A stretch of DNA of 64,000 bases, from contig JAQWTL010000041.1 in the NCBI GenBank assembly GCA_029242715.1, forward strand, positions 62,001 to 126,000, written 5' to 3'. Under the pieces are notes generated by a model. It was not told the origin of the DNA. It made no database searches and worked only from the letters and a program-made list of their open reading frames with translations. Shown here in pieces: positions 50,355-59,062 of the stretch. Every line of letters begins with the position of its first letter. Within the stretch, counting starts at the first letter, position 1. The position numbers and the translations under genes were made by a program. Origin of the DNA: Phycisphaerales bacterium. Its GTDB lineage: Bacteria; Planctomycetota; Phycisphaerae; Phycisphaerales; SM1A02.

Positions 50355-51206
50355 ATGGCTGAGGCCACGCAGCGATCCTGGACAGACGTTGAAGCTGGGA
50401 CCCCAACGGGAAAGAAGCCCGTACCTGAGGGCCTCTGGCTTCGGTGTCCTGACTGTGGAGCGATTCTCTTCCGACGCTCTCTTGAGAACAACCAGCAGGT
50501 CTGTCCAGAATGTGCGCACCACTTCAGGTTGCCTGCGATGGATCGCATCCGGCTCCTGGTGGATCCCGGAAGTTTCGTCGCGATTGATGAATCGCTTCAG
50601 TCACAGGATCCACTTGAATTCGTCGACCTCAAGTCCTATGCCGATCGCTTGGAAGCGACCATGGCGAAGACTGGAACCAATGAAGCCGTGCACTGTGGTA
50701 CAGGTTTCATCAAGGGTCGAAAGGTCATTCTCGCTGTCATGGATTTCACATTCCTTGGCGGCTCCATGGGATCAGTCGTAGGAGAGAAGATCGTTCGGGC
50801 CGTGGAAGCGGCGTCCAGTGAAGATCTCCCATTGATCGTTGTGTCTGCATCTGGCGGAGCCAGGATGATGGAATCCGGTTTTTCCTTGATGCAGATGGCC
50901 AAGACATCCGCGGCTCTGGCACGCTTCGATGAAATGGGTGGGTTGTACATCTCTGTTCTGACCGATCCGACAACTGGTGGTGTGACCGCCAGCTTCGCCA
51001 TGCTTGGTGATGTGATCCTTGCAGAACCCAAGGCATTGATCGGCTTTGCAGGACCGCGGGTGATCCAGCAGACGATTCGACAGGATCTTCCGGATGGCTT
51101 CCAGCGATCCGAGTTCCTGATGCAGTGTGGTTTCCTTGATCGCGTTGTGGATCGAAGAGATCTTCGAAGCGAGATCAGCAGTCTCATTGACTATGCCGGA
51201 AAGTAA
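50355..51206 (+). CDS. accD: Acetyl-CoA carboxylase carboxyltransferase subunit beta
   Basis: 283 residues. With AccA it transfers the carboxyl group from biotin to acetyl-CoA, the committed step of fatty acid synthesis. Seen: N-terminal zinc ribbon with Cys31, Cys34, Cys50, Cys53 (LRCPDCGAILF and QQVCPECAHHF), then the crotonase-like core FLGGSMGSVVGEKI, SASGGARMMESGFSLMQMAKT, TDPTTGGVTASFAMLGDV and EPKALIGFAGPRVI. GGAG lies 11 bases upstream. The 3' end overlaps lnt by 14 bases. Confidence 0.94.
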   Translation: MAEATQRSWTDVEAGTPTGKKPVPEGLWLRCPDCGAILFRRSLENNQQVCPECAHHFRLPAMDRIRLLVDPGSFVAIDESLQSQDPLEFVDLKSYADRLEATMAKTGTNEAVHCGTGFIKGRKVILAVMDFTFLGGSMGSVVGEKIVRAVEAASSEDLPLIVVSASGGARMMESGFSLMQMAKTSAALARFDEMGGLYISVLTDPTTGGVTASFAMLGDVILAEPKALIGFAGPRVIQQTIRQDLPDGFQRSEFLMQCGFLDRVVDRRDLRSEISSLIDYAGK

Positions 51207-52872
51207 CGCTGCTTGTTCGAAAGTGACCAGGCGAAGTGATTCGCTTCTGTACACGCTTGTGTTGCTGGCATTGTCAGCAGCAGCGTGGTTGATGTCGTGG
51301 CCTCCGCTGGATCTGTGGCCAATGAGTTTTCTGTGGGCTGCCCTGTTGATTCGCGCTGCCATCGGCGCTCGGAATCACTGGTGGCTGGGTCTGATCTGCC
51401 TGATTGTCTTTGCCGCCTGTTGGGCCTGGTTACTGAGATGGAGCATGGATGTCTCCACGGCGGGGTATCCAGCGATGGTGATCTATTCTGCGATCTGGAT
51501 GGTGCTCTTTGCATGGTTGTTTCGATGGTTTGAAGATCGAAAGCCTTTCGCCAGAGTGCCGCTGGCTGTCCTGGCACCAGTCATCTGGATTGCACTTGAG
51601 TACTTGCGGGCAGAGGTTGTCTTTGGCGCCTGGCCTTGGTATTTGGCGGGTCACCCTCTGATCGAGTGGCCTCTGATCTGTCAGGTTGCAGATCTTGGAG
51701 GGGTCTGGGTAGTCAGCATGCTGGTCCTCTGTATCGGCGGCGCTATTGCAGAGTGGATGCGGCGGCGGCCCATGATCCGCCATGCGGCGGTTTCTTCGAT
51801 TGTGGCTGGGTGCTTCTTGTTGCTGTCGATCGGCTGGGGATTGCTGGCGGTCTCCCGGGAACCAGGTCCAGTGATGGGGAAATTCCTGCTGCTGCAGACC
51901 AATATTCCCCAGGACAACAAGCTTCGATGGTCTGTTGAGGAACAGATTGAGGATCTTGGTTCATTCATGGAGTTGACCGCGGAGGGTCTCAGGGACTTCG
52001 GTGGGGCAGACGTGGTGGTCTGGCCGGAATCGATGCTGCCGGGGATCGGATTTGAAAGTTCCGTACACGAGTCACTGGATGCCCACGGCATGACCTTCGG
52101 CGGTCTTCCACCGTCATTCTGGCGAGATGCAATCCTGCGGTTCGCTGAAGCAACCATGACGCCAATGCTCATCGGGACCAATACATGGGCTGGAAATCTG
52201 GAGGTCAAGGAAGATTCAACGTCCAGCTATGTCGATCCCCAATGGCAGTACAACAGCGTTGTCCTTCTGGAGCCTGAAGCCGTTCAGCAGTACCACAAGG
52301 TGTTCCCGACACCGTTCGGCGAACGCCTTCCCTGGATTGATGCCTGGCCATGGTTGCGGGAGCAACTTCTCTCCTTGGGGGCCAGAGGACTGAGGCTCCA
52401 GCTCGATGCCGGCCCAAGAATGGACCCCATTGAAATCAGTCTTGAGGACGGTTCAGTCCTGCCCATGGCGACGCCCATTTGTTTTGAAGCTACCGTTCCG
52501 AGTCTCACTCGCGACCTGGTGCTGGGCGACGGCATTCCAACGGACTTGATCATCAACATTTCAAACGACGGCTGGTTTGGTGATGTCGATGGGGGCCGGT
52601 TGATTCATGCTCAATCTGCCCGATTCCGATGCATCGAATTGGGGCGGCCCATGCTCCGATGTGCCAACACGGGCCAGACCGGCTGGTTTGATTCACGTGG
52701 TCGCCTCGTTGCCTCCCTGCCATTGCAGGAAGCTGGGACCATGATTGCCGAGCCAAGACTCGATTCACGGCGTACGCTGTATGGAATTGTCGGCAACCTG
52801 TTGCCGGTTGCCTGCCTTGTCCTTGTAATCGTGTGTTTCCTACTTTCACTGGGAGCGAAGAGGCTCAAATGA
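51193..52872 (+). CDS. lnt: Apolipoprotein N-acyltransferase
   Basis: 559 residues. Adds the third acyl chain to the N-terminal cysteine of lipoproteins at the outer face of the inner membrane. Six or so N-terminal membrane segments, then a nitrilase-fold domain from about 235 (MGKFLLLQTNIPQDNK). The catalytic triad is seen as Glu279 (VVWPESMLP), Lys369 (QYHKVFPTPFGE) and Cys430 (PICFEATVPS). The ending NISNDGWFGDVDGGRLIHAQ is typical. I start at ATG 51193. The stop overlaps the next gene by 4 bases. Presence of Lnt supports a diderm. Confidence 0.93.
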   Translation: MPESNAACSKVTRRSDSLLYTLVLLALSAAAWLMSWPPLDLWPMSFLWAALLIRAAIGARNHWWLGLICLIVFAACWAWLLRWSMDVSTAGYPAMVIYSAIWMVLFAWLFRWFEDRKPFARVPLAVLAPVIWIALEYLRAEVVFGAWPWYLAGHPLIEWPLICQVADLGGVWVVSMLVLCIGGAIAEWMRRRPMIRHAAVSSIVAGCFLLLSIGWGLLAVSREPGPVMGKFLLLQTNIPQDNKLRWSVEEQIEDLGSFMELTAEGLRDFGGADVVVWPESMLPGIGFESSVHESLDAHGMTFGGLPPSFWRDAILRFAEATMTPMLIGTNTWAGNLEVKEDSTSSYVDPQWQYNSVVLLEPEAVQQYHKVFPTPFGERLPWIDAWPWLREQLLSLGARGLRLQLDAGPRMDPIEISLEDGSVLPMATPICFEATVPSLTRDLVLGDGIPTDLIINISNDGWFGDVDGGRLIHAQSARFRCIELGRPMLRCANTGQTGWFDSRGRLVASLPLQEAGTMIAEPRLDSRRTLYGIVGNLLPVACLVLVIVCFLLSLGAKRLK

Positions 52873-53972
52873 AGAGTTCTTGTCCTCAAGCAATAGCGAC
52901 TCTGGCTCTGGCGATTCTGGTTGTTTTTTTCGGAGCCTGTTCGAACGAAGGAAAGCCCACCAAGTGGAGCACTCGTGGCCAGAGCATTGTTCCGACGACT
53001 ACGACGCCTGCTTCCTTGAATCCCAGCAAGCCGAAGCGTGCTCCACTTTCAGTGAAAAACGACGACCTTCAGTTTGCGGCCGTTGAGGTTCTGGATCAGG
53101 CGTCCTTGTCAGATGACGCGCTTATGCGGGCCAATGCGATCGAGGCGTTGCAGCCCACAACCGAGCCCCTGAGAGCAGCGGTACTTCGAGGACTTGTAGA
53201 TCCGAATGAGGGCGTTCGGTTTGTTGCCGCAATGTCCATTGGCCGGCGAAATCTCTGTGGTGTGTCCCACCTGCTGGGGCCATTGCTGAAAGATCCATCC
53301 AATTCGGTTCGTGCAGCAGCAATCTACGCCTTGGCGACATGTGGCGAAGAGGTCGACATCAACCCACTCGCGGCTTACATCATCAGCGAACGTGCAGCTG
53401 ATCGTGCCAATGCCGCCATGGTGCTTGCAGAAATGGGAAATGATTCTGCCATCCCCGTCGTTCGAAACGGCCTGGGCCGAGGATTTGAATCCTATGACCC
53501 GGCACGTTCGCGGACGATCGATCTGCTGATGGCCGAGTCCCTTGTCCGGCTGGGTGACCGACGTGAACTCGAAGCCATCCGGGCAGCGTTGTTTGCTCCA
53601 CCAGAGCACAGTGAGATGACGGCTCTGGCCTGTCAGATGCTTGCAAGACTCGATGATCGGGCCGCCATTCCAAACATGCATGATCTGGCTACAGGCGAGG
53701 GGCCTCGCAAGGCCGGCCCAGAGCTCCGCCTGGTGGCTGCTACGGCCTTGGCCGAGCTTCAGCCGGATCTTGTCCCCATGGATCTGGTGATCTCACAGAT
53801 TGGCTCAGAGCAGCCTGGGGTCAGGATGCAGGTTGCCAATGTCCTGGGAGGGCTGGCCAATCCTGCTTACGAGCCCCAACTGGCCATGCTTTTGAATGAC
53901 GAGGATCCTCATGTCCAGGTTGCCTCGGCAGCGGCAATCCTCAAGATCAGCCAGAAGGTCGCCTCCCGGTGA
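52869..53972 (+). CDS. HEAT-repeat lipoprotein
   Basis: 367 residues. Lipoprotein signal MKSSCPQAIATLALAILVVF-FGAC with the modified cysteine at residue 24. After a low-complexity Thr/Pro linker, at least six HEAT/PBS-lyase-like helical repeats are visible (for example NEGVRFVAAMSIGRR, SNSVRAAAIYALA, ERAADRANAAMVLAE, GVRMQVANVLGGLA, PHVQVASAAAILK). These form a protein-binding solenoid, partner unknown. It overlaps lnt by 4 bases, so the enzyme that finishes lipoproteins is coupled to a lipoprotein. Confidence 0.78.
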   Translation: MKSSCPQAIATLALAILVVFFGACSNEGKPTKWSTRGQSIVPTTTTPASLNPSKPKRAPLSVKNDDLQFAAVEVLDQASLSDDALMRANAIEALQPTTEPLRAAVLRGLVDPNEGVRFVAAMSIGRRNLCGVSHLLGPLLKDPSNSVRAAAIYALATCGEEVDINPLAAYIISERAADRANAAMVLAEMGNDSAIPVVRNGLGRGFESYDPARSRTIDLLMAESLVRLGDRRELEAIRAALFAPPEHSEMTALACQMLARLDDRAAIPNMHDLATGEGPRKAGPELRLVAATALAELQPDLVPMDLVISQIGSEQPGVRMQVANVLGGLANPAYEPQLAMLLNDEDPHVQVASAAAILKISQKVASR

Positions 53973-54056: not shown

Positions 54057-54134
54057 CGCAGCCCATCCAGCTCGTATTGAGCCCGGAAGGACCGTGTTGG
54101 CGAACTGTTGAATAGGAACTCAGCGAGGCTTCCA

Positions 54135-55025
54135 GTGCACATTCTCACCAAGGTATTCATTGTTCTGATCACGTTGTTGGCCATCTTCCTGGTGCCTCTC
54201 GTGGTTGTTTCTGCGAAGAATCAGGTTGCTTGGAAAACCAAGGCCCTGCAGACCGAGACGGATCGGGAATCCGCCCGTCAACAACTGGTGCAGGCGCGTA
54301 GTGCTCACCAGGATGAAATTGCACGGCTGACTTCCGAGGCCAGCAGTTACTCACAACAATTGGCAACGAAGGACGCTCAGCTGACTTCCATTCAGGAAGT
54401 CCGTCGAAGCATGGAAGACGATCTCCTGGCAAGCCGCTCATCAGCAGCCAACCAGGGCGCAATGAACCGATCACTCTCAAAGAGCCTTCAGGCCAGTACT
54501 GATCTGACCCAAGGTCTGGTCGGTCGTGTTGGTGAACTGCGAACGCGTGCTTTGACAGCAGAAGAACGCAGAGTGGAACTTGATGAAGCCTTGAGAGATC
54601 TCAACAGCCGTCTTGAAACAGCTGTTGCAGCACAGAGATCCCTTCAGGAAGAGATCTCGAAGCTCAAGGATGAAAAGGACAATGCCAAGTCGCGCATCGC
54701 GGCATACGTTGCCCGCTTTGGCGCACTTGAAGACCAGGCTGCTGATACCGACGAAGGCTTGGCACCGGACAGGACTCTTGATGCAACGATCCTGGACGTT
54801 CGACGTGTAGGCGATCGAACTCTTGCTGAGATTGATGCTGGTTCACGAGATGGTGTCCAGGCCGGTTGGGTCATGACGATCGGTGACAACGGTATTTTCA
54901 TCGGTCGCCTCAGGATCACTCATGTGGATATCAATCGTTCCACAGGCGTCGTCACTCTGGAAGATCCCACACGCGGACTGGTTGAGACCGGTCAGCGAGC
55001 CTACTCACTGCTGGGCCAGAACTGA
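54135..55025 (+). CDS. MreC-like membrane-anchored coiled-coil protein
   Basis: 296 residues. One N-terminal membrane helix (VFIVLITLLAIFLVPLVVVSA), a coiled coil over about residues 35-205 with Gln/Glu/Arg heptads, and a C-terminal beta domain. In that domain AEIDAGSRDGVQAGWVM and IGDNGIFIGRLRITHVD recall the MreC pattern GSxDGVxxGxxV and LVGRV. The true mreC lies two genes downstream of mreB, so this is a second protein with MreC architecture. Start: GTG at 54135 with GAGG 6 bases before it, or TTG at 54108. Not in any family I can name with certainty. Confidence 0.6.
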   Translation: MHILTKVFIVLITLLAIFLVPLVVVSAKNQVAWKTKALQTETDRESARQQLVQARSAHQDEIARLTSEASSYSQQLATKDAQLTSIQEVRRSMEDDLLASRSSAANQGAMNRSLSKSLQASTDLTQGLVGRVGELRTRALTAEERRVELDEALRDLNSRLETAVAAQRSLQEEISKLKDEKDNAKSRIAAYVARFGALEDQAADTDEGLAPDRTLDATILDVRRVGDRTLAEIDAGSRDGVQAGWVMTIGDNGIFIGRLRITHVDINRSTGVVTLEDPTRGLVETGQRAYSLLGQN

Positions 55026-55046
55026 GCCCACTTGGAGGAGTCCCCG

Positions 55047-55247
55047 ATGGCGAGTCGATTTGGCAATTCTTCAGGTCAAGCCAGTCAAGGCGGCCAGGTC
55101 AACGTTTACACGGTCCTGACGCTTGTGGGCTTCCTGATCATGCTCGTCGGCGTGGTATGGATGATCTTCCATAACATGGACTACTCCAAGGACTTCACGA
55201 ATGGTTCCGAGGGTGGGGTTTTCGCCATCCTTGACCAGGGCCGCTGA
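55047..55247 (+). CDS. Small single-pass membrane protein
   Basis: 66 residues. A polar Ser/Gly/Gln-rich lead, one membrane segment (VYTVLTLVGFLIMLVGVVWMIF) and a short polar tail ending ILDQGR. The ATG at 55047 has GGAGGAG upstream, a strong ribosome site. It sits 21 bp after the MreC-like gene and 89 bp before mreB. No family recognised. Context suggests a helper of the cell-shape proteins. Confidence 0.65.
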   Translation: MASRFGNSSGQASQGGQVNVYTVLTLVGFLIMLVGVVWMIFHNMDYSKDFTNGSEGGVFAILDQGR

Positions 55248-55336: not shown

Positions 55337-56383
55337 ATGTTGGATCGAATTTTGAATTGGTTCAGTGTGGACATGGGGATTGACCTCGGCACCTGCAACA
55401 CCTTGGTGGCCGTGAGGGGTGAAGGCATCATCCTGAACGAGCCTTCAGTTGTTGCAGTCAAGCGTGGTACGAATCGTGTCCTGAACAATGGAAACGCTGT
55501 TGGATGGCAGGCCAAGGAGATGCTTGGCAAGACGCCGGGATCAATTAGCGCCATTCGTCCGTTGAAAGACGGCGTGATCAGTGACTTTGAGATCACTGAA
55601 GCAATGCTCAGCTACTTCATCCGTAAAGCGACAGGCAAGCGGATCGTCAGCCCACGTGTCGTGATTGCAGTACCCAGCGGAATTACCGCAGTTGAAAAAC
55701 GAGCTGTTCTTGATTCTGCGGAACGTGCCGGGGCGAGACGTGTGTATCTGGTCGAGGAACCGATGGCCGCAGGCATCGGCGCCGGTTTGCCGATTGTCGA
55801 GCCCACTGCATCGATGGTGGTTGATATTGGTGGTGGTACCACTGAGGTGGCCATCATGTCGCTTGCCGATATTGCGACCTGCGAATCAGTTCGAGTGGCG
55901 GGTGATGATTTTGATGAAGCAATCATTCATCACATGAAGAAGACATATAACCTCACCATCGGTGAACAGACCGCAGAACGGATCAAGATCGAAATCGGTT
56001 CTGCTGCTGACGTCGGTGAGGACACGGTCAAGGAGGTTCGAGGCCGCGACAACCTCTCCGGTTTGCCCCGGAAGACCGAGGTGACCAGTGCAGAAGTACG
56101 CGAGGCCCTCCAGGAGCCGGTGAAAGCCATCGTCGATGCCGTGAAACGGACGCTGGAGCGTGCTGAGCCAGAACTCGCTGCAGATCTTGTTGATAACGGA
56201 ATCAGCCTTGTCGGGGGCGGTGCCCTTCTACGAGGTCTGGATGTCATTATCCACGAGGACACTGGCCTTGATGTTTCCATTGCTGAGGATCCACTGACTT
56301 GTGTTGCCCGGGGCACCAGCATCTACCTCGAGAATCTCGAGGAGTGGAAGTCGACGATGGAATCCGACATGGACGACCTGTGA
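55337..56383 (+). CDS. mreB: Rod shape-determining protein MreB
   Basis: 348 residues. Bacterial actin that positions wall synthesis. Seen: phosphate-1 loop MGIDLGTCNTLVAVRGEG, EPSVVAV, IAVPSGITAVEKRAV, EEPMAAGIGAGLP, VDIGGGTTEVAIMSL and the adenosine loop LVGGGALLRGLD. The ATG at 55337 has AGGGG upstream and a TATGAT box at 55301-55306. Start of mreB-mreC-mreD. Some planctomycetes lack MreB, so its presence here argues for an order that keeps it. Confidence 0.96.
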   Translation: MLDRILNWFSVDMGIDLGTCNTLVAVRGEGIILNEPSVVAVKRGTNRVLNNGNAVGWQAKEMLGKTPGSISAIRPLKDGVISDFEITEAMLSYFIRKATGKRIVSPRVVIAVPSGITAVEKRAVLDSAERAGARRVYLVEEPMAAGIGAGLPIVEPTASMVVDIGGGTTEVAIMSLADIATCESVRVAGDDFDEAIIHHMKKTYNLTIGEQTAERIKIEIGSAADVGEDTVKEVRGRDNLSGLPRKTEVTSAEVREALQEPVKAIVDAVKRTLERAEPELAADLVDNGISLVGGGALLRGLDVIIHEDTGLDVSIAEDPLTCVARGTSIYLENLEEWKSTMESDMDDL

Positions 56384-56396
56384 TCCACCTCGCGGC

Positions 56397-57269
56397 ATGA
56401 GGATTCGATCACGACATGTCCTCAGCCTTCTCATGGCTCTGACACTGCTCCTTGCAGTTCTACCGACGCGTTGGCTCGGTTGGACGGGAGATGCTGCCGA
56501 CATCATTCGAATTCCAATCATGCCTCTGGCGGGCGTTGGAAGTCGCGTGGCAGGTGCCATGCGACCGGTGAATGTGCAACGAGGTGCTGCAGGAAATGTT
56601 GAAGACCTGCTCCATGTCGAAGGGCAGCGGGATCGACTTGAGCGTTTGCTGCTCCAAGAGCAGTTGCGATCTGCCGAGATGGAAGCGCAGCTTCGACATA
56701 TCCAGGGGCTGCCACCTCGAACTTCCAGTTCACAGCCACCCTTGCTGATCGAGTTGGATGTCACGGGACGTCGACCTGACCATCCAGTTTCAGGCGTGGA
56801 ATTGCATGTACCTGCGGAATCAACAGGACGCGTTCAGGTAGGCGATGCCTTGACATGGGATGGTCGATGGCTCATTGGTCGTATCACGCGTGTTTCTGAC
56901 ATCCGACTCTCTGCATTGCCAATAACACATCCCGATGTCGGTCCCCTCATGGGTGTGCTGTTGCCAGAAGGCGTGAAGGCAAATGCCGCATCTGCGCCAG
57001 CTGTGCGATTACGACAGAACGGCAGAGGCCAGTTGCTGGGCGAGATTGATCGACGGACCGATGCGAAGATCGGCGACCGGATCGTGCTTGCTGATCGTGC
57101 ATGGCCAGTATCCCTGCAGGCTTTCCGAATAGGTCGAGTCACGGCTGTAGAGGATCTTGATGAGGCGCCCCTCCGCCGACGTCTGGTGGTGGAGCCGGAG
57201 GTACATCTCTATGAGTTGCCATGGGTCGTCGTGGTTGGTCCAGATGGACCTGATGGGGTGGTCCAGTGA
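56397..57269 (+). CDS. mreC: Rod shape-determining protein MreC
   Basis: 290 residues. Periplasmic scaffold of the elongasome linking MreB/MreD to PBP2. Seen: N-terminal membrane helix HVLSLLMALTLLLAVLP, a short coiled coil (VEGQRDRLERLLLQEQLRSAEMEA as a leucine-rich stretch), then two beta-barrel halves with GRVQVGDALTWDGRWLIGRI and AKIGDRIVLADRAWPV. The sequence is divergent but position in the operon supports the call. Overlaps mreD by 4 bases (GTGA). Confidence 0.82.
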   Translation: MRIRSRHVLSLLMALTLLLAVLPTRWLGWTGDAADIIRIPIMPLAGVGSRVAGAMRPVNVQRGAAGNVEDLLHVEGQRDRLERLLLQEQLRSAEMEAQLRHIQGLPPRTSSSQPPLLIELDVTGRRPDHPVSGVELHVPAESTGRVQVGDALTWDGRWLIGRITRVSDIRLSALPITHPDVGPLMGVLLPEGVKANAASAPAVRLRQNGRGQLLGEIDRRTDAKIGDRIVLADRAWPVSLQAFRIGRVTAVEDLDEAPLRRRLVVEPEVHLYELPWVVVVGPDGPDGVVQ

Positions 57270-57832
57270 GGTGGCTTGTATTCATCATTGCGGCATTGAT
57301 TGCCGTCGGGCTCGATTCGGGATTCAGCGGAATCTTCACATTGCGTGGAGCTGGCTTCCTGACGCCCAGCTTCGCAGCCTGCCTGCTCGCATTTGTCGCA
57401 TTGCTGGCCCCACCGGTTTCGGTGATCTGGGCAGCCTGGTTCCTTGGATTGTTGGCAGATCTTTCCCCAGGCCTTGGTGAGGCGGGGGGCGGCATTCAGT
57501 TGATCGGGCCGCACGCCTTGGGTTACCCACTGGGTGCCTGGGTGGTATTGAACTTCAGGACCTGGATGTTCCGGCGACGTGTTTTGACCATTTCTCTGCT
57601 TACGTTCCTGTGCGTGCTGGTTGCGGGGCTGGTTCAGACGGCAATTGGGATCTTGCGATTCTGGCTGCCATGGGCTGGAGGAGAACTGGTGCCGTTTGGT
57701 GCCGGAGAGATGCTGCATGAAACGGGCAACGCTGCTTACTCGGCGCTTCTGGCCATCCCTCTGGGCTGGATTCTTATTCAGACCCTGCCGCTGTGGCGGT
57801 TCGACTATGGTACTTCTCGCCGATCCGGCTAA
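57266..57832 (+). CDS. mreD: Rod shape-determining protein MreD
   Basis: 188 residues with five or six hydrophobic segments and no soluble domain. Identified by place after mreC, with RWLVFIIAALIAVGLDSGF at the N terminus and ISLLTFLCVLVAGLVQTAIG in the middle, fitting MreD. The GTG at 57266 overlaps the mreC stop. The family is poorly conserved, so the call rests on context and topology. Confidence 0.7.
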   Translation: MRWLVFIIAALIAVGLDSGFSGIFTLRGAGFLTPSFAACLLAFVALLAPPVSVIWAAWFLGLLADLSPGLGEAGGGIQLIGPHALGYPLGAWVVLNFRTWMFRRRVLTISLLTFLCVLVAGLVQTAIGILRFWLPWAGGELVPFGAGEMLHETGNAAYSALLAIPLGWILIQTLPLWRFDYGTSRRSG

Positions 57833-57862: not shown

Positions 57863-59062
57863 ATGGCAGAACTGATCATCTTTGACGACGGTCGCGGACA
57901 GATGGGACCACTGGATGATTTGTGTCCGGTTTTTTCACTGCGAACAGGTGGCTTTCAAACGTACGAGCGCATTGAGCGATCACTCGGGCAGTTTGTGAGT
58001 GGTTGGTGGGTCACAACCCGGCATCAGGCATCCTGGTCGGCGAGCAATACGCGCCCCGTCAACACGCTTCCAAAGGGTGATCAGTTGCTTTGCGTCAACG
58101 GAAGGTGGTCGGGCTGTGGTGATCTGCCTGTCCCTGGAGTCGGTCATGCAATCCTGGATGAAGCAGGCGATGTCCTCATCGCATGCCTTTCTCGTGAGGA
58201 TGCAAGCATGCTTCTTGAGCAGGGTCAACTTCCTGATGGGATCAAGTCAGAGGTTGTCCCGGGTGTTCCGATCTACAGGAAGGCATGGGATCTTCTGAAC
58301 TGGCTTTCGGAGACTCTGGCTGATGACCTGGAAGCCGAGCCTTTCTCGCCCAATGCAGCGGATCGCGCCGAGTGCGCAGGTGAACATCCCGTCAGCATTG
58401 ACGATACGTCTGTCGTCTTCCCAGGCGTTGTATTTGATACGCATGCAGGACCGATCTTCATCGGACCTGAGGTGACGATTCGACCCAACGCAGTTCTCGT
58501 CGGCCCTTGCTGGATCGGGCGAGGAAGTGTGGTATCGGAAGGCGCCGTGATTCGAGGAAATACAGCAATTGGCCCTCATTGCAGGGTCGGTGGAGAGGTT
58601 GGCGCATCTATTTTCCAGGGCTGGAGCAACAAGGTGCATGATGGCTACCTGGGCGACAGCCTGGTAGGCCAATGGGTCAATATCGGCGCCGATACTGTGA
58701 CATCCAACTTGCTCAATACCTACGGGGAGATCTCCATGAGACTGGAGCCTGATGGTCCCCGGCAGCGAACTGGTCGCATGTTCCTTGGAACTCTGTTTGC
58801 AGATCATGTCAAGACAGCCATTGGAACTCGTTTGATGACTGGAACAGTGCTGGGTACGGGTTCGATGATTGCCAGAACCAGCCCGCCGCCGTCGACCGTA
58901 TCCCGGTTTGCCTGGCTTACCGATGACGATGATCGTGTCTATCGATTGGACAAGTTCATTGAAATGGTTCGTCTTGTCATGGCCCGTCGTGATCAATCAC
59001 TAGGAGATGCCGACGAGGCAATACTCCGAGCCTTGCACGGCAAGGTATCCCTAGATAGTTGA
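57863..59062 (+). CDS. Alternative GlmU-like UDP-GlcNAc synthesis protein
   Basis: 399 residues. N-terminal nucleotidyltransferase-like part opening AELIIFDDGRGQMGPLDDLCPVFSLRTGG, the pattern of the alternative bacterial GlmU family (first described in Bacteroidetes), without the usual GxGTRM signature. From about 190 there is a left-handed beta-helix with hexapeptide repeats (IFIGPEVTIRPNAVLVGP, VVSEGAVIRGNTAIGPHC) ending in a long loop, as in the acetyltransferase part. If functional, it makes UDP-GlcNAc for wall and LPS synthesis, fitting its place after mreD. Substrate inferred. Confidence 0.72.
   Translation: MAELIIFDDGRGQMGPLDDLCPVFSLRTGGFQTYERIERSLGQFVSGWWVTTRHQASWSASNTRPVNTLPKGDQLLCVNGRWSGCGDLPVPGVGHAILDEAGDVLIACLSREDASMLLEQGQLPDGIKSEVVPGVPIYRKAWDLLNWLSETLADDLEAEPFSPNAADRAECAGEHPVSIDDTSVVFPGVVFDTHAGPIFIGPEVTIRPNAVLVGPCWIGRGSVVSEGAVIRGNTAIGPHCRVGGEVGASIFQGWSNKVHDGYLGDSLVGQWVNIGADTVTSNLLNTYGEISMRLEPDGPRQRTGRMFLGTLFADHVKTAIGTRLMTGTVLGTGSMIARTSPPPSTVSRFAWLTDDDDRVYRLDKFIEMVRLVMARRDQSLGDADEAILRALHGKVSLDS

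Follow-up and report, generated by a model that had tools for sequence, protein, structure and literature searches.

X and S are two adjacent genes that lie directly before mreB in a 64,000-nucleotide stretch of DNA (the window) from a Phycisphaerales bacterium. They represent a real, phylum-wide gene pair of the Planctomycetota for which no described function was found, and X is not a second MreC. X encodes a protein predicted to have an N-terminal membrane anchor, a long coiled coil and a C-terminal beta-barrel, whilst S encodes a very small single-pass membrane protein. The conservation of X, its pairing with S and the length of the X coil are well supported, and the mechanism with the best support is a membrane-anchored spacer of constrained length with a small partner, linked through gene order to mreB and to lnt. 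No paper describing X-S was found in searches of an open-access library, planctomycete coiled-coil genes neighbouring mreB included. The loss of ftsZ from planctomycetes is described in a passage of PMC10632474, and a passage of an earlier survey reports no RodZ in these bacteria (PMC5147048). X-S is a concrete phylum-wide gene pair, usually found near mreB, that bears on what organises planctomycete wall growth and the variable periplasm.

The locus and its products

The source genome assembly, which is of the Phycisphaerae type, comprises 3.2 Mb in 46 contigs. All the genes considered here are on the plus strand of the window, in the order lnt, a HEAT-repeat gene, X, S, mreB, mreC, mreD and an alternative glmU. 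The apolipoprotein N-acyltransferase gene, lnt (51196..52872; TIGR00546, 2.7e-66), is a frequent upstream neighbour of X. It is followed by the gene for the HEAT-repeat protein (52869..53972; PF13646, 4.1e-23), which synteny shows to be retained 5' of X in many Phycisphaerae loci. X occupies 54135..55025, with a GTG start and a TGA stop at 55023-55025, and S occupies 55047..55247, with an ATG start and a stop at 55245-55247. The start of S is 21 nt past the X stop and 7 nt behind a ribosome-binding site, GGAGGA, at 55034..55039. Downstream are mreB (55337..56383; PF06723, 4.9e-137), the genuine mreC (56397..57269; PF04085, 1.7e-6, 28.3 bits with a cut-off of 28), whose start was placed at MRIRSRH inside the frame 56301-57269, and mreD (57266..57832; PF04093, 3.7e-5, 24.3 bits with a cut-off of 24). 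The preliminary description of this region, as an anchored coil and beta-domain protein followed by a tiny single-pass protein with a ribosome site ahead of mreB, mreC and mreD, is confirmed.

A promoter scan returned no site, and a terminator scan returned four where 3.1 were expected. The window mreD is recognisable by PF04093 with a score barely above the cut-off; a passage of the 2016 survey places MreD in no PVC proteome (PMC5147048). Directly 3' of mreD, at 57863-59062, is a gene for an alternative bacterial GlmU (TIGR03991), a placement that recurs in many named relatives.

The X reading frame opens at 54135 with MHILTKVFIVL and specifies 296 residues. An alternative TTG at 54108 would add nine residues, and the start at 54135 is supported by close relatives, which begin with MHILTK; the nearest of the named relatives is 89% identical in X. 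Three parts can be delineated within the protein: a transmembrane anchor at residues 7-25 (54153..54209), assigned by hydropathy, a coiled coil at residues 29-195 (54219..54719), assigned from the AlphaFold2 helix, from constancy of length and from periodicity (heptad-like, z 5.5), and a six-stranded beta-barrel at residues 213-296 (54771..55022), assigned from AlphaFold2, fold searches and Pfam matches of relatives. The AlphaFold2 model of X, built with 28 sequences, has a helix over residues 4-195, a mean pLDDT of 88 and a pTM of 0.33, and its barrel strands span 215-225, 228-233, 245-251, 254-264, 269-274 and 288-291, with pLDDT values of 75-92 in the barrel block. Modelled alone with 49 sequences the barrel adopts the same fold (pLDDT 85.6, pTM 0.72), and in both models it is a single six-stranded barrel.

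Neither X nor S has a Pfam or NCBIfam match above cut-off, and the weak matches of X are mostly cross-matches between coiled coils. A PDB profile search with full-length X placed myosin at the top and gave only coils among the 60 matches listed. A crescentin-like rod was considered and rejected; at E<=0.1 PF19220 matches 23 of the 60 proteins, but unrelated coil families match likewise. For S, the best Pfam match is to TMEM252 (E 0.0008; 19.5 bits, below the cut-off of 27) and was judged to be noise.

Distribution of the pair and its gene neighbours

The window X sequence has matches in 250 of the 298 class genomes, and a profile of 28 X sequences finds 264 of 294 genomes of the phylum, so the X frame is not a product of chance. 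A profile of the barrel only gives a similar 265 of 294 at E<=1e-6, and 136 of 155 when only the better genomes are counted. The X-S module is phylum-wide and not confined to the Phycisphaerae. MreB is present in 273 of the 294 genomes (E 1e-30). Family f68 forms a clear exception, with MreB in 15/15 genomes and the barrel match missing in 14/15, the sole match being in G568 at 5.4e-7. The full-length profile, which includes the coil, does give weak matches in several f68 genomes, none better than 1.9e-6. The full-length profile of alignment A3 (60 X sequences, see below) matches all 69 of the weak or negative genomes, but since the listed matches in f68 and f96 cover the coil only, such matches were not counted as presence and the barrel profile was used instead.

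X is also found without a proper MreB, in three genomes that are each 99% complete (G455, G490 and G552). S follows X in the first two of these (loci L183 and L182, respectively). At E 1e-3 the matches to the MreB model in the three genomes are all partial and fall in frames of 519-981 aa, which are probably Hsp70-type proteins.

The pairing of X and S was examined in two samples. The first consisted of 80 named relatives, mostly close, from Phycisphaerae or other Planctomycetota metagenome-assembled genomes, with a few entries under misapplied or uninformative names (Candidatus Kuenenia, Limnohabitans, uncultured bacterium). Enough sequence was available in 71, of which 70 have S behind X, and mreB lies no more than 1.5 kb downstream in 65/65. 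The second sample consisted of 60 loci, mostly one per family, 52 taken phylum-wide and eight from the class, in which an S-like gene was defined as a small single-TM frame beginning between -60 and +200 nt from the X stop. Such a gene follows X in 52 of the 60 loci, or 55 when frames of up to 200 aa are allowed. The same test gave 1/29 after lnt, 2/41 after mreB (3/41 up to 200 aa) and 0/17 after mreD, a sum of 3/87 in these controls; the HEAT-repeat gene, used likewise, provided two cases only, one of them positive, which are kept outside the 3/87. In this broader sample mreB is within 1.5 kb of X in 42 of 57 loci. The proposal that the pair adjoins mreB in relatives has consequently stood up in both samples.

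The linkage to mreB has been lost in some members of the class families f2, f4, f5, f10, f12 and f18. S still follows X in most of the mreB-unlinked class loci examined, although at L207 it was seen only in a wider scan, and S hence tracks X rather than mreB. Inspection by eye of 14 mapped loci without a nearby mreB revealed no other common gene, bar the extra X-like copies of family f50.

The S sequences themselves are widely divergent. In the Phycisphaerae form the motif [DN]-[VI]-[YF]-T stands ahead of the transmembrane segment, as NVYT in the window protein of 66 residues, whilst many other S proteins have a tail of the type Y-G-x-G-x-F. Sequence searching finds S in only 11 of the 298 class genomes, and recognition needed position together with hydropathy.

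The second frequent neighbour of X, lnt, is upstream in 27 of 55 loci, and it raises the alternative that X-S acts in outer-membrane biogenesis, in the transport of lipoproteins or lipid A, and that mreB is a frequent but incidental neighbour. Three loci, L024-L026, speak for this alternative in that mreB was not found in the 1.5 kb downstream, yet the HEAT-repeat gene is still upstream, joined in two of them by a piece of lnt. A lipid A acyltransferase gene is moreover found after a paralogue of X (described below) in 11 of 30 loci. As mreB is the more frequent neighbour and neither X nor S belongs to a transport family in Pfam or NCBIfam, we regard this explanation as very unlikely.

Affinity of the barrel

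X had been put forward as a second MreC-type scaffold on account of MreC-like core motifs in its beta domain. The motifs are indeed present, but the GSxDGVxxG pattern is common to MreC and to barrels of the FlgT_C/TsaP type, and thus does not by itself identify MreC. The order of anchor, coiled coil and barrel found in MreC is also that of X, and the two have in common an N-terminal anchor, a predicted six-stranded barrel and mreB as a neighbour. MreC has two six-stranded barrels, according to a passage of PMC8804602, and a variable span from anchor to barrel, whereas X has one barrel and a longer coil of constant length. On the MreC interpretation X would be a divergent paralogue that has lost one barrel and acts as a second elongasome scaffold, docking on PBP2/RodA near MreB and MreD.

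Family profiles point elsewhere. When the 49 X barrels of alignment A4 (A3 minus 11 of its 60 rows, these being truncated matches or sequences with C-terminal extensions) were compared with Pfam at E<=1, the C-terminal domain of the Vibrio flagellar H-ring protein FlgT (FlgT_C, PF16538) was matched by 32, with a best value of 1.1e-5, and the MreC family (PF04085) by 3, with a best value of 0.047; the window barrel itself matched neither at this threshold. The neighbouring MreC proteins matched PF04085 in 26/26 cases at E<=1, although this positive control holds partly by construction, since the set (A5, made up of the window MreC and 25 of 30 frames, with uncurated starts) was drawn from frames that already had an MreC-profile score after MreB. 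FlgT_C is absent among the 25 families listed for these MreC proteins. With whole X proteins FlgT_C is matched by 16 of 60 at E<=0.1. Assignment of X to MreC by family was rejected on the contrast between 3/49 and 26/26. A six-frame search of the source genome with PF04085 gave nothing at E<=0.001, a search that is insensitive since the MreC protein itself scores 1.7e-6.

FlgT_C is the closest to the X barrel by Pfam, but X differs from FlgT in its build of anchor, coil and barrel, in the lack of any Pfam match to the FlgT N-terminal and middle domains in the window protein at E<=1, and in its position outside a flagellar locus. Weak profile similarity also extends to TsaP (PDB 3jc8), a LysM protein of the type IV pilus machine. 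In a PDB profile search with the barrel TsaP has a whole-sequence E of 2.6e-4, made up from two weak stretches of which the stronger has only 0.18, and a further LysM protein appears at 0.026. Unlike TsaP, the window X has no Pfam match to LysM and carries an anchor and a coil.

Several comparisons do lead to MreC. An hhalign alignment of the X barrel with MreC has a probability of 88.9 and an E of 2.4e-6 over 54 columns. The NCBIfam MreC models each reach one or two X barrels (E 0.0025-0.06), that of the window included at 0.017, and the NCBIfam library gives no FlgT_C match. An iterated profile seeded by the window MreC gathers 167 X frames among its 270 matches, and the X profile in turn reaches three MreC frames weakly, at E 5e-6 to 3.6e-4. 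Foldseek of the X barrel places MreC structures in the top three positions (2j5u, 2qf4 and 7eft; E 0.010-0.014) and FlgT 40th (E 0.066); no structure has an E under 0.001.

The VIA comparison ranks FlgT first. With the full model the leading structure is an LPHT-ring chain, 8z5n, presumably FlgT itself (Z 10.6, rmsd 1.7, 73 aligned), followed by FlgT 3w1e (Z 9.8, rmsd 1.9, 74 aligned). With the barrel-only model the two have Z values of 10.6 and 10.5 and rmsd values of 6.5 and 6.4, which are high because a helix was drawn into the alignment. MreC follows with 7eft at Z 9.5-9.6 (rmsd 2.6-2.7 over 72-73 residues) and 6zm0 at Z 9.2-9.4. The MreC alignment matches 73 residues between positions 116 and 273 of the chain, and would appear to use one MreC barrel and skip the second. 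F1-ATPase barrels (9.7) and MreC are within about one Z unit of FlgT and must be counted as tied. With this tie, and with Foldseek placing MreC first, the fold cannot choose the family.

From these profile comparisons we conclude that the X and MreC barrels probably belong to a remote common superfamily within which X, as a family, would be nearer to FlgT_C. The expectation of the preliminary description that the predicted C-terminal domain would resemble the MreC barrel agrees with the fold comparisons (Foldseek MreC first; VIA Z 9.6, rmsd 2.7 over 73 residues), in which FlgT and F1-ATPase barrels are tied with MreC. Its classification of X as MreC-type was not supported, given profiles nearer to FlgT_C, one barrel in place of two, a coil that is longer and far more constant, and a pair that is kept in genomes that lack MreB or encode it at a distance. 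A true MreC is, in addition, present in the window and at many other loci. Descent of X from MreC as a second elongasome scaffold is accordingly quite improbable. X-type barrels are also found in tandem, in a 412-aa frame (G405:C819:3111-4130) with four consecutive barrel matches.

The coil, its side of the membrane and a possible role

The distance from the end of the transmembrane segment to a conserved barrel glycine is 203 +/- 4 residues in 60 X proteins (range 191-212). The same span in 26 MreC proteins, measured to a comparable barrel column from uncurated starts, is 109 +/- 36 residues (range 50-260). In A3 the coil region has 165.8 +/- 2.5 residues with a mean pairwise identity of 14.0%, compared with 34.3% in the transmembrane part (residues 1-28) and 30.4% in the barrel. 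This alignment contains 53 of the 60 loci L152-L211, the window sequence and six class members, the loci having been fetched from better-scoring X matches, a bias against which the barrel-only search of the 294 phylum genomes serves as the check. Seven loci (L160, L178, L187, L191, L195, L196 and L200) were left out for mis-trimmed or odd ends, none of which is among the listed length outliers. As a guard against selecting by length, the measurement was repeated with the barrel-only profile, which leaves the coil unused. Of 224 unique TM-bearing frames, 198 are within 10 residues of the median distance from transmembrane segment to barrel end; nine of the other 26 are at 310-319, where the long frames are second genes of family f48, seven at 190-249 or 280-299 and ten just beyond the 10-residue band. 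Identical frames were removed from the 224 and close relatives kept, and some genomes are entered under two locus ids.

The length of the X coil hence looks constrained, and a constant length combined with a divergent sequence is the pattern that a molecular spacer would be predicted to have. With a rise of about 0.15 nm for each residue, it would extend for some 25 nm. Little variation in length is usual among coils, 3.6 times lower than that of a comparator named outside the passage concerned (PMC5082667), and constancy is for this reason weak proof of a ruler. A passage of the same source (PMC5082667) provides an analogy in Omp-alpha of Thermotoga, where a coiled-coil rod acts as a spacer between membranes. 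Omp-alpha, however, belongs to the outer membrane and measures about 50 nm, whereas X is anchored at its N-end and would be about 25 nm long.

The periplasmic or cytoplasmic placement of the rod has to be judged mainly from the residues around the anchor. The ATP synthase b subunit resembles X in its short N-tail, single transmembrane segment, long coil and similar content of K+R in the C-flank, and differs in that X has a barrel and no acidic residues in its N-tail. Tethers of the ATP synthase b type face the cytoplasm, whereas the barrels of FlgT, TsaP and MreC are periplasmic. AtpF of the same phylum was therefore used as a C-in control; a usable transmembrane segment was obtained in 23 of 30 AtpF frames, some of doubtful choice (e.g. 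L309), and in 24 of 26 MreC frames. The N-tail of X has six residues, with a K at its end that is nearly invariant at the start of the transmembrane segment in relatives. Acidic residues per eight in the N-flank number 0.00 in X, 0.17 in MreC and 0.83 in AtpF, and K+R in the N-flank of MreC is 2.46. In the C-flank the net charge is +0.68 in X, +0.12 in MreC and +0.39 in AtpF, and K+R per 15 residues is 2.52, 1.29 and 2.65, respectively. The charge bias (C minus N, with the amine counted) is -1.15 for X, -1.50 for its paralogue X2, -3.17 for MreC and -0.52 for AtpF. The test is a weak one because all four biases share one sign and that of X is nearer to AtpF than to MreC. A periplasmic rod is preferred because the N-terminus of X is without acidic residues, so that the charges weakly favour the periplasmic side.

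The alternative is that X is arranged N-out and C-in, as a b-like tethered rod that spaces MreB filaments or the nucleoid from the membrane. The short N-tail and the K/R-rich C-flank, both similar to AtpF, fit this arrangement, as does the adjacency of mreB, whose product is cytoplasmic. A single unpaired Cys in 19 of 60 X barrels could be read in the same way, although beyond residue 30 the Cys content of X is only 0.14% (MreC 0.64%, MreB 1.1%), coils being Cys-poor anyway. The strongest reason to keep the alternative comes from the paralogue. X2 of the source genome (G000:C41:66351-67748; L273:745-2145) has 466 residues and the same build as X, its barrel resembling FlgT_C (E 0.0019; 19 bits, below the cut-off of 27), and relatives are present in 81/81 class genomes sampled (L275-L304 among them). 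A BRCT domain follows the barrel in 16 of 22 X2 proteins (set A6; PF00533 at E<=1, best 2.6e-6), though the X2 of the source genome taken alone has no PF00533 match, and a PDB profile search gives RFC1 at 3e-4 and DNA ligase at 6.5e-4. Known BRCT domains are cytoplasmic or nuclear. X2 has either its C-end inside the cell or a domain of BRCT fold outside it, and either is unusual. Its N-tail is, however, basic and non-acidic, much like that of X, and together with the non-acidic N-flank of X, its nearly invariant K, the periplasmic location of the related barrels and the retention of X-S in genomes without MreB, this leads us to consider a cytoplasmic X unlikely.

We would thus prefer to see X-S as a two-protein module of the inner membrane, with X anchored by its N-terminal helix and projecting into the periplasm. 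The coil, of some 165 residues, may self-associate and so set the distance of the barrel from the membrane at about 25 nm, where the barrel would touch envelope enzymes, the outer membrane or peptidoglycan. The S gene comes directly behind X, and its product would be the small membrane partner of X; the mreB neighbourhood would tie this spacer or scaffold to wall growth and cell shape. Taken whole, the statement that X-S is a planctomycete envelope spacer/scaffold pair, periplasmic and usually beside mreB, seems to us evenly poised between right and wrong. That X-S acts in the unusual envelope of planctomycetes is plausible, and of the earlier idea of a cell-shape module with two MreC scaffolds the association with mreB stands, whilst the assignment of X to the MreC type does not.

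A stricter version, in which X-S is a periplasmic ruler of about 25 nm that fixes the spacing of the inner membrane to the outer membrane or peptidoglycan at growth sites marked by MreB, is somewhat unlikely. For comparison, the distance between inner and outer membrane in E. coli is given as 30-32 nm in a passage on tomography under hyperosmotic conditions (PMC8824477). The planctomycete periplasm is described, in the part of PMC5394234 concerned, as variable and capable of great enlargement, and a single fixed strut everywhere fits poorly with this variable width. If X is a spacer, a change in the number of heptads should alter the geometry of the envelope, an idea that is directly testable in the genetically tractable Planctopirus limnophila, provided that its genome holds X-S.

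The lipid A acyltransferase gene (PF03279) that follows X2 in 11 of 30 loci (L275-L280, L282, L284, L285, L298 and L303) is restricted, within the 1.5 kb flank, to the taxonomic order from which the window comes, where it is found in 11/11 loci as opposed to 0/19 in others. Further X-like copies occur at some X loci. Family f48 (L231, L232 and L234-L241) has a longer X paralogue, of about 317 residues from transmembrane segment to barrel end, downstream of the normal X. In family f50 a shorter X-like copy is found upstream of X (L175, L198, L199 and L200), and at L181 and L186 a second X-like copy lies downstream of X.
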